NCBI GenBank assembly: GCA_014381305.1
Contig: JACNLW010000063.1
Span: 1 to 39,914 of the forward strand
Direction: 5' to 3'
Origin: Planctomycetota bacterium
GTDB lineage: Bacteria; Planctomycetota; Phycisphaerae; Phycisphaerales; SM1A02
Length of the DNA: 39,914 nucleotides
In this document: piece after piece, positions 14,265 to 16,063 of the stretch
Position numbering within the stretch: the first letter of the stretch is position 1
Layout: every line of letters begins with the position of its first letter
Notes under the pieces: generated by a model
Told to the model about the DNA's origin: nothing
Seen by the model: the letters and a program-made list of their open reading frames with translations, nothing else
The model's database searches: none
Position numbers and translations under genes: made by a program

Positions 14265-14366
14265 TTTTTTATCCTTCTCCTCGTTGACACTTCGCCAACG
14301 AATAAGTTTAAGGTAGCACCAAAAGTGGGCTCGGACAATGAAAAAATACAGATTATGGTTAATTAT

Positions 14367-14396
14367 TTCAACGTGATTACCAATAAATGCTAGAAT
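14367..14396 (+). promoter_or_regulatory. Promoter of tRNA-Gly
   Basis: Extended -10 TGCTAGAAT (hexamer TAGAAT at 14391-14396, 5 of 6), with TTCAAC 18 bp upstream as a weak -35. The expected start lies about 7 bp before the mature tRNA 5' end. Confidence 0.5.
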
Positions 14397-14409
14397 TACG
14401 AAATCCTAG

Positions 14410-14482
14410 GCGGGTGTAGCTCAATTGGTAGAGCGTCAGCCTTCCAAGCTGAATGTCGAGGGTTCGAACCCCTTCACCCGCT
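14410..14482 (+). tRNA. tRNA-Gly (anticodon UCC)
   Basis: Complete cloverleaf of 73 nt: acceptor GCGGGTG/CACCCGC, D-arm GCTC...GAGC with GGTA, anticodon stem TCAGC/GCTGA around loop CTTCCAA (anticodon TCC), T-arm GAGGG-TTCGAAC-CCCTT (one G-U pair) and discriminator T. CCA is not encoded and would be added by the Cca enzyme at 27519. The last 19 nt, from the T-loop onward, are the start of the 155-bp tandem repeat that follows. Confidence 0.97.
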
Positions 14483-14993
14483 TCGCTATCGACCCAAGAA
14501 AGAAGCCTTTCTTGGGTCGAGTTGCTTCGCGGATGCATGGCTGCAAAGCAGCCATCGTCTGGCAAAGCCACACAGGGGGTTCGCGGCGCACTAATTTGCT
14601 GCGCAAATCATTACGGCGTCGAACCCCTTCACCCGCTTCGCTATCGACCCAAGAAAGAAGCCTTTCTTGGGTCGAGTTGCTTCGCGGATGCATGGCTGCA
14701 AAGCAGCCATCGTCTGGCAAAGCCACACAGGGGGTTCGCGGCGCACTAATTTGCTGCGCAAATCATTACGGCGTCGAACCCCTTCACCCGCTTCGCTATC
14801 GACCCAAGAAAGAAGCCTTTCTTGGGTCGAGTTGCTTCGCGGATGCATGGCTGCAAAGCAGCCATCGTCTGGCAAAGCCACACAGGGGGTTCGCGGCGCA
14901 CTAATTTGCTGCGCAAATCATTACGGCGTCGAACCCCTTCACCCGCTTCGCTATCGACCCAAGAAAGAAGCCTTTCTTGGGTCGAGTTGCTTC
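14464..14993. repeat. 155-bp tandem array seeded by the tRNA-Gly 3' end (3 full copies plus 65 bp)
   Basis: Units start at 14464, 14619, 14774 and 14929, exactly 155 bp apart, and appear identical by eye. The fourth breaks off after 14993. Each unit opens with the tRNA T-loop to discriminator sequence (TCGAACCCCTTCACCCGCT). It then has three hairpins: a 14-bp perfect stem with a 4-nt loop (unit 1: 14489-14502 with 14507-14520), an 8-bp stem (14537-14544 with 14548-14555) and a 6-bp stem (14594-14599 with 14603-14608). 155 is not a multiple of 3 and several frames are open on both strands, so the ORFs through it are a by-product of the repeat rather than genes. Confidence 0.95.
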
Positions 14994-15019
14994 TCGGCGA
15001 ACAAATTAGCTGCGCAATT

Positions 15020-15040
15020 AAACTCACCCTCGGTGAGTTT
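15020..15040. repeat. Palindromic repeat, copy C (array cap)
   Basis: The same 9-bp arms AAACTCACC/GGTGAGTTT as copies A and B, with loop CTC instead of CCC. It lies between the broken fourth array unit and the stop codon of the GNAT gene. Read on the minus strand the flank (CATAAACTCACC ... GGTGAGTTTAATTGC) is close to that of copy B. Confidence 0.8.
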
Positions 15041-15053
15041 ATGAATAAGTGAG

Positions 15054-15578
15054 TCAAATTTGGGTATCAGTAGTAGTATCGCTATACAAATCGAGGTAGA
15101 AATCACGAAGTTTACGACCTTCGACCTCTCGCTCTCGACCTTGCAGAAAACCAAACGTGTCAAACATGGCGAGTGCTGCACCTCTTTCGATTCGCACATC
15201 TAAAACAACTTTTAGAAATTGCCTTTCTCTGCAAAACGAAATTGCTTGCTCCATCAATGATGAACCAATACCTTTTCGTCGAAAACCATCGCGCACTCGA
15301 AGTCGGCGGATCTCAGCTGAATCATCGCTCACTCGTTGCACGCCGATCATGCCAACAATTGCCGATTCGATTTCAGCAACCCAAAATCCACTGTCCTTAC
15401 ATTCGAGATATCCCGCCACTAAATGATCGATGTCTGCCCCAGTATCGTTTTCTCTTAACTGCCCTTCAATTCGACTTCTTTCGAAAAGTTCTAGAAGCAC
15501 AGGCACATCATTTTCTGAGGCAGTACGTATAGCAGCCCCTCGAGGTGTGTCGTCATGATTGTGCGCGTCACTAAACAT
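15054..15578 (-). CDS. GNAT-family N-acetyltransferase
   Basis: 174 residues from the ATG at 15578, chosen over the upstream frame because AGAGGTGG precedes it and it starts 5 bp after the yfcE-like stop. GNAT features: a central beta-strand with IVGMIGVQRV, then the acetyl-CoA-binding motif A, LRVRDGFRRKGIGSSLMEQAI (R-x-x-G-x-G/A type), followed by LKVVLDVRIERGAALAMFDTFGF, the usual 'N-x-x-A-x-x-(F/L)-Y' helix in varied form. It transfers an acetyl group from acetyl-CoA to an unknown amine. It is the last gene of the valS operon, and its 3' end abuts the palindrome capping the tRNA-derived array. Confidence 0.85.
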   Translation of the reverse strand: MFSDAHNHDDTPRGAAIRTASENDVPVLLELFERSRIEGQLRENDTGADIDHLVAGYLECKDSGFWVAEIESAIVGMIGVQRVSDDSAEIRRLRVRDGFRRKGIGSSLMEQAISFCRERQFLKVVLDVRIERGAALAMFDTFGFLQGREREVEGRKLRDFYLDLYSDTTTDTQI

Positions 15579-15583
15579 CAAAT

Positions 15584-16063
15584 TTATTCCACCTCTAGAA
15601 ACACAAGTGTATCCGCACTTGGATCTAGCACAGCAACAGTGTACACCGCAGCACGGTGTAGTGCACCTGGATTGATACAACGCGTCTTATTCACCATTTC
15701 ATCGCGTTTTTCATGCGTATGACCATGTAAAAGATAGTCCACACCATCATTTAAAAAAAAGTGGTATTTTTCTTCGTCATGCCCATGTAGAAAGGCAATC
15801 CGCTTCCCATCAACAGTTAAAACATCTGCACCGTCGCGAACATCAATGCCAACAGTGACTGCGTAATCGTAAAGCCTCGCACCCCAGTCACAATTCCCAA
15901 ATACAAGTACAACATCAAAACCAATGAGTTCATCAAGAACCTCAACAATTTCAACATCTCCCAAATGAATAAACTTCGTGCAACCATAATCGGCAAGTTG
16001 CTGCATCGCACTACGAGTACGAGAAACTTCACCGTGCGAATCAGAAATGATTCCAATCAACAT
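15584..16063 (-). CDS. YfcE/MJ0936-type metallophosphoesterase
   Basis: 159 residues, the usual size of this compact calcineurin-like family. All metal-binding motifs are present: SDSHG (near residue 8), HLGDVE, FGNCD (GNHD-like with Cys in place of His), HGHDEEK and HGHTHEKR, then the family-typical NPGALHR. It probably hydrolyses phosphodiesters with two bound divalent metals in the cytoplasm; the substrate is unknown. Its ATG is one base after the stop of the upstream lipoprotein gene, so it is within the valS operon. Confidence 0.92.
   Translation of the reverse strand: MLIGIISDSHGEVSRTRSAMQQLADYGCTKFIHLGDVEIVEVLDELIGFDVVLVFGNCDWGARLYDYAVTVGIDVRDGADVLTVDGKRIAFLHGHDEEKYHFFLNDGVDYLLHGHTHEKRDEMVNKTRCINPGALHRAAVYTVAVLDPSADTLVFLEVE

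Follow-up and report, generated by a model that had tools for sequence, protein, structure and literature searches.

The tRNA-Gly(TCC) gene of this planctomycete is followed by a tandem array of 155-bp units, each of which opens with the 3′ end of the tRNA and carries a body that can fold into a tRNA-like shape. The most plausible explanation, to which we give a probability of about 0.6, is that these are degenerate tRNA-like cloverleaf units that were born locally from the preceding tRNA and were then multiplied and homogenised by recombination or slippage. Arrays with diverged units are present at the same locus in two related species, and copies of the tRNA tail are found behind other tRNA genes of the genus.

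The window, meaning the whole stretch of 39,914 nt that was analysed, is contig C114 of the assembly designated G000 (other G numbers denote the compared genomes). The parent tRNA gene is placed at 14409–14484 by ARAGORN and at 14410–14482 by the Rfam tRNA model (RF00005, 75.4 bits); like all parts of the array it lies on the forward strand. TRF reports a period of 155 with 3.4 copies and 99% matches from 14464 to 14997, and a repeat search of the window gives three in-register stretches of 224 nt, spaced by 155 and 100% identical, so the tandem array of identical full copies described in the first-pass annotation is real. Every unit begins with the terminal 19 nt of the tRNA (14464–14482, T-loop to discriminator base), as that annotation had also stated. 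By TRF and the repeat search, unit 1 (14464–14618) overlaps the tRNA 3′ end, and units 2 (14619–14773) and 3 (14774–14928) are the same in sequence. The annotation closed the array with 65 bp of a further copy; there is indeed a partial fourth unit, consisting of tail and hairpin, but TRF extends it to about 14997 (14929–14997, 69 nt, 99%), and the repeat search adds 27 nt of degenerate T-loop-insert sequence after the last hairpin (14991–15017, 85% identical). The units are composed of the 19-nt tail, a hairpin, and a body of ∼108 nt that includes ∼18 nt of the next tail. The hairpin 3′ of the tRNA (14489–14520, from folding and the repeat search) has the perfect 14-bp stem claimed earlier and recurs in all copies (14644–14675, 14799–14830 and 14954–14985). 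It is poor in T-runs, and a scan for terminator-like structures was passed by the last copy only (1 found, 1.3 expected). The tRNA-like bodies, defined by the minimum free energy (MFE) fold and by a covariance model (R1, see below), lie at 14529–14637, 14684–14792 and 14839–14947, and are closed by the regenerated tails that the repeat search places at 14619–14637, 14774–14792 and 14929–14947. A convergent GNAT acetyltransferase ORF (15054–15680, reverse strand) serves as a marker for the locus. Directly 3′ of the array, at 15020–15041, is a palindrome, AAACTCACCCTCGGTGAGTTT, and palindromes of the form CTCACC..GGTGAG were seen by eye 3′ of tRNA-Asp, tRNA-Leu(CAA) and tRNA-Val(GAC) in G000, the last two sharing 28 identical nt; the kind is possibly a dispersed palindromic repeat.

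When the body is folded alone, the MFE structure is a four-way cloverleaf of −49.4 kcal/mol, in which an acceptor-like stem (GCGG/CCGC) is followed by arms of 8 and 6 bp and by a long T-arm; in body 1 the first arm occupies 14537–14555, the second 14557–14573 and the T-arm 14574–14629. Along the T-arm, AGGGGGTTCG is followed by 35 nt containing a hairpin and then by TCGAACCCCTT, an arrangement equivalent to an insert in the T-loop. The insert of body 1 lies at 14584–14618, between AGGGGGTTCG and TCGAACCCC. When four bases of flank are left at either end, the preferred fold (−51.2) instead has two long arms, so the cloverleaf is a possible but not the sole fold of the window unit. The T-arm pairing is present in each MFE structure, while the acceptor pairing appears only with the flanks trimmed. 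In the predicted fold the tail pairs with an upstream complement and closes the unit. R1, which was built from three Gly bodies including body 1, matches the window at 14529–14641, 14684–14796 and 14839–14951. No second tRNA was detected in the array by ARAGORN or Rfam, both of which found the first tRNA alone; at gathering threshold this was the only Rfam match in the window, and relaxed thresholds added sub-threshold, chance-like matches only.

The first-pass annotation proposed that the unit be looked for in relatives and at other tRNA genes, and comparable units were found in both. The GNAT marker was matched in 12 of 13 genomes of the genus, and the tRNA-Gly(TCC) locus could be viewed in ten of the 13, the window's genome included (G004, G009 and G011 are not among them). 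Arrays with diverged units occur at this locus in G002 (162 bp) and G007 (166 bp). Each is split over two contigs that are presumed to be linked across the gap; the GNAT marker sits on the array contigs (C44 in G002, C8 in G007). The remaining seven genomes (G005, G001, G012, G008, G010, G006 and G003, that of G008 on a short contig) have the tRNA and a hairpin only. GNAT identity to the window's protein is 87% in G005, 86% in G002 and 64% in G007. The hairpin varies among species, and that found in the array units is the one of the species concerned. Over 46 nt of the T-arm and insert, G000 and G007 share 87% identity. RNAalifold predicts 30 pairs for the three Gly bodies, four of them changed on both sides and five broken in one sequence, which is weak covariation backing for the modelled structure. 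Under stricter filters R1 matched three of 121 genomes of the family, and these were its three source genomes. The core pattern of the T-loop insert matched two genome-contig records, in a search from which the window's own genome was possibly left out, and had no match in viral contigs. In G008, runs of a GGTCTGACCCCGGACC-like repeat follow the hairpin 3′ of tRNA-Gly, by eye unrelated to the 155-bp unit.

In the two other assemblies with arrays the contigs break off within the array at this locus, which supports the existence of the array. Its exact copy number in the window is unproven, the assembly being fragmented into 114 contigs of which the window is one. An assembly artefact, to which the fragmented assembly and exact repeats exceeding short-read length might point, is highly improbable, given that three genomes have differing unit sequences at the same locus and that two of them have contigs ending inside the array, as real repeats cause.

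Tail copies are not restricted to tRNA-Gly. The 28 terminal nt of each tRNA were aligned to the 300 nt downstream and upstream, with other tRNA genes masked, for five genomes of the genus (26 distinct loci from 28 hits in G000, 36 of 37 in G002, 37 of 37 in G005, 31 of 31 in G007 and, in part, 18 of 36 in G001). A forward score of at least 10 was reached at 18 of 140 testable loci downstream, against one of 140 upstream; by genome, the downstream counts are 6/26 in G000, 3/34 in G002, 2/36 in G005, 6/26 in G007 and 1/18 in G001. With a score of at least 12 the difference was 11/140 against 0/140, and with the reverse complement also counted at score 10 it was 21 against two. These hits do not include the Gly arrays of G002 and G007, which are split by the ends of their contigs. 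The tRNAs involved include Gly, Lys-CTT, Asn, Val-GAC, Val-TAC, Thr-CGT, fMet, Arg-TCT, Asp, Cys, Pro and Tyr, although the hits at G001 Asp and G005 Pro-TGG are probably due to chance. In another genus of the same family, G074 has three forward-positive loci of 38, including a tRNA-Asn array with a period of 206. Genomes of other genera gave none at forward score 10 or above: 0/39 in the one-contig genome G021, 0/20 in G033 and 0/7 in G019. With the reverse complement counted, these become 1/39 (also 1/39 upstream), 1/20 and 0/7. The locus sets outside the genus are partial (39 of 48 tRNA hits in G021, 20 of 39 in G033, 7 of 42 in G019 and 40 of 49 in G074). Apparent hits at tRNA-His and tRNA-Ser in G033 were neighbouring tRNA genes and disappeared after masking. 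A search of 397 genomes of the class for a tandem tRNA-Asn tail pattern matched two, G000 and G074; G005, which has an Asn tail copy, lies outside that sample.

At 13 of 148 loci of the genus, a tandem repeat with at least 18 exactly matching nt starts no more than 150 nt 3′ of the tRNA; not all of these repeats include the tail, and the upstream control gave one case over 254 loci, in G074. Examples of the periods are 168 bp (Asp), 173 bp (fMet), and 194 and 203 bp (Asn). The repeats of G000 Asp, G074 Met and G074 Ala have no tail; at G000 Thr, G007 Tyr and G007 Val-TAC the repeat either is internal or has no exact tail. Directly 3′ of tRNA-Val(TAC) in G007 is a hairpin-rich 225-bp tandem array with an exact self-match of 380 nt and no exact tail, and tRNA-Met and tRNA-Ala(CGC) of G074 are followed by short tandem hairpin repeats with periods of 66 and 102 bp, without tail copies. 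A local hairpin is found inside the units of the arrays at Gly (G000, G002, G007), Asp and fMet (G007) and Asn (G005, G074). At tRNA-Lys(CTT) of G000 two tails are 99 bp apart and the hairpin lies only 3′ of the second, outside the unit, so not every case fits the anatomy expected of local duplication.

Twenty planctomycete elements were folded, chosen by eye together with their start points. Most are tail-positive loci, to which were added G007 Val-TAC, G005 fMet, G074 Gly-GCC and the split Gly arrays; outside the set are Ala of G002, Asp of G001, Phe of G000, the cut fMet of G000, and the Pro loci of the genus except Pro-GGG of G007. A four-way junction closed near the tail was predicted in eight of the 20, compared to 2.2 expected from dinucleotide shuffles. 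The z-scores are strong for several elements (Asn G000 −13.1, Asp G007 −7.7, Arg-TCT G002 −7.2, fMet G007 −7.2, Val-GAC G000 −5.6), and the 206-bp unit of G074 tRNA-Asn is likewise predicted to be a four-way cloverleaf. Twelve elements have no four-way junction: Asn of G005 is three-way, Lys of G002 is five-way and ten form none. Among the twelve are the window's unit with four flanking bases on each side and the G007 Gly unit. The fMet element of G005 (z −0.9) looks decayed. Two further G074 elements, outside the 20, gave separate arms (Val-TAC) and one weak stem (Pro-GGG). These predictions are supportive of cloverleafs across loci, not conclusive, and the T-loop position of the inserts was likewise judged by eye.

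The history that we favour would begin with a duplication of the 3′ part of a tRNA together with its downstream hairpin. The copy would then have lost its tRNA identity while keeping or regaining a cloverleaf-like shape with an overgrown T-arm, and retaining the tRNA tail. The identical tails and hairpins may then have served as sites for unequal recombination or slippage, which would have multiplied the unit and kept its copies identical, a form of concerted evolution. If the first hairpin is read through, the product would be a chain of structured RNAs, by analogy with the tyrT operon of Escherichia coli. Local duplication and concerted evolution are favoured over a mobile element because the hairpin in the units is the local one and the body usually is too; BLAST matches between the downstream regions of these loci and those of other tRNAs are 59 nt at most. 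R1 does find the tRNA-Val(GAC) element of G000 (E 2.9e-6, E-values being rough), and the T-loop inserts of Gly and Val-GAC look related. The bodies are therefore not all strictly locus-specific, and exchange between loci or common ancestry is possible. The recent slippage expansion offered in the first-pass annotation, or unequal exchange, remains likely for the copy number, but leaves the tRNA-like body and its recurrence at other tRNAs unexplained.

One possible alternative is that the units are neutral by-products of tRNA loci that form cruciform or cloverleaf DNA, in which template switching perfects and extends palindromes and slippage repeats them. The arms are indeed near-perfect, the bodies diverge fast and the distribution is patchy. 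A hairpin palindrome after the tRNA reaches at least 3 nt into the tRNA at nine of 21 tail-positive loci compared to seven of 119 others, a comparison that is partly circular, a few of the 21 being positive by reverse complement only. Such processes alone, however, would explain neither the recurrent position of the T-loop insert, as judged by eye, nor the similarity of the Gly and Val-GAC bodies.

A more doubtful proposal, which overlaps the local-origin reading and adds selection to it, is that each cloverleaf is a selected small RNA, acting as a tRNA mimic or decoy, or regulating tRNA maturation. For the latter, a post-tRNA hairpin that reaches into the tRNA means that tail copies 1 and 2 could compete for the complementary strand. 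Four-way folds are predicted from largely unrelated bodies (for example tRNA-Asn of G000 and G074, though that of G005 is three-way), with strong z-scores, and G000 and G007 share the 46-nt stretch at 87% identity. On the other hand, the array is missing at the Gly locus of seven relatives, the fMet element of G005 appears decayed, and covariation is thin (four of 30 pairs double-changed). The first-pass idea of an array of small structured RNAs made by read-through of the tRNA would be compatible with the predicted structure and with tyrT/rttR of E. coli.

The option listed first in that annotation was that a tiny element inserts step by step at the tRNA 3′ end, a classic target of tyrosine integrases. 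We consider this improbable, also with a recombinase of that type acting in trans. In classical tRNA-integrated elements the integrase core is a direct repeat from the T-loop to the 3′ end, and the direct repeats here span the same interval. Six loci, spread over five genomes of the genus, have an integrase gene (PF00589) directly 3′ of a tRNA, the bodies at Gly and Val-GAC are related, and the spacing of the Lys tails in G000, with the hairpin only after the second, could also be read in this way. Against this, the array units hold the hairpin of their host locus and are about 100–225 bp long, the cross-tRNA body matches are short, and related units are found at the same locus in species whose GNAT proteins are 86% (G002) and 64% (G007) identical to the window's. 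The window contig has no PF00589 match, in agreement with the earlier report that the window holds no integrase gene; the three matches of G000 are on contigs C80, C4 and C10. No tail copy with a score of at least 10 was found in the 0.6–3.6 kb available downstream of the integrase-bearing tRNAs. Long cross-tRNA BLAST matches fall at other loci (Leu-GAG, Tyr, Val-TAC and Ile), several of which hold integrase genes directly 3′ of the tRNA. These integrase genes, with open frames of up to 464 aa, are convergent to tRNA-Leu(GAG), tRNA-Val(TAC) or tRNA-Tyr (loci L256–L261; L256 is tRNA-Leu(GAG) on C10 of G000, 2357–2442), and the 137 nt 3′ of tRNA-Leu(GAG) and tRNA-Tyr are 85–86% identical in G000/G002, which suggests a single integrase element family using several tRNAs. 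Overall, the earlier interpretation is partly supported, and a recurrent cloverleaf repeat linked to tRNAs should take the place of integrase insertion or simple slippage.

The closest known parallel is the tyrT/tyrV region of E. coli K-12, where a 178-bp unit is repeated 3.1 times downstream. The 3′-terminal 19 nt of tRNA-Tyr are present in every one of these units, and rttR and tpr are annotated there. The history of the tyrT repeats was reportedly treated by Egan and Landy, and a role in the stringent response has been proposed; to our knowledge their origin has not been explained. The window's array shares the anatomy of such RtT-like repeats, a tandem unit of similar size behind a tRNA and containing its 3′ 19 nt. 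In both, the tail is predicted to pair with an upstream complement, and several arms are formed. The E. coli units are closed by GGGGAAGGAT/AATCCTTCCCC, with a four-way junction in three of four and a six-way junction in the spacer copy, and an upstream AAGGTTCGA resembles by eye the 5′ half of a T-arm. Their folds are weaker than those of the planctomycete units (z −2.2 to −3.3 for the tail-closed part, and −0.7, no better than shuffles, for the whole 178-nt unit). The planctomycete case further differs in the tRNA involved, in the hairpin present in every unit, and in affecting several tRNA genes per genome. The RtT model (rttR, RF00391) matched none of 13 genomes of the genus at E ≤ 0.001, while the E. 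coli positive control was matched, and it was absent among window matches up to E 5 at 14300–15100; the similarity is thus one of anatomy, with no detected homology. For E. coli RtT itself, two papers report parts with covariation support and one proposed helix without any (PMC7657543, PMC8250186), the reported support being a point for the selected-RNA proposal. A Salmonella table lists both an ‘rtT RNA, 175 bp VNTR’ and a ‘tRNA-Gly, 220 bp VNTR’ (PMC2658671).

Other comparisons are more distant. In E. coli, small RNAs between the dual terminators of rRNA operons (rrA, rrB and rrF) arise by read-through of the first terminator (PMC8144298). The planctomycete arrays would resemble them, if read-through occurs, in placing a small RNA 3′ of a stable-RNA gene past a first terminator, but in the available portion of that paper they are not described as tRNA-derived or tandem. 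The bacterial pseudo-tRNA tRNA-Other of Bacillus cereus is a tRNA-like gene unused in translation (PMC3399842); it differs in being a single gene, and the available text describes neither an array nor a T-loop insert. A literature search that took in few subscription papers found no such arrays described in planctomycetes.

In this genus of small-genome planctomycetes, tail-bearing units lie behind about a dozen different tRNA genes, and since unit states range over absent, single, decayed and tandem, origin and function can be compared across loci and species. A speculative extension, which we hold only tentatively, is that they represent an undescribed class of tandem ‘ghost tRNA’ loci, cloverleafs with a T-loop hairpin that keep the tail of the preceding tRNA and arise repeatedly behind many tRNAs, the E. 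coli tyrT repeats being the one studied example; they might be both expressed and under selection, perhaps serving as decoys in tRNA processing or as switches of tRNA maturation. If expressed, they would form a family of tRNA-like RNAs not detected here by ARAGORN or Rfam. If not, they would provide a clear case of cloverleaf-forming DNA giving rise to repeats.
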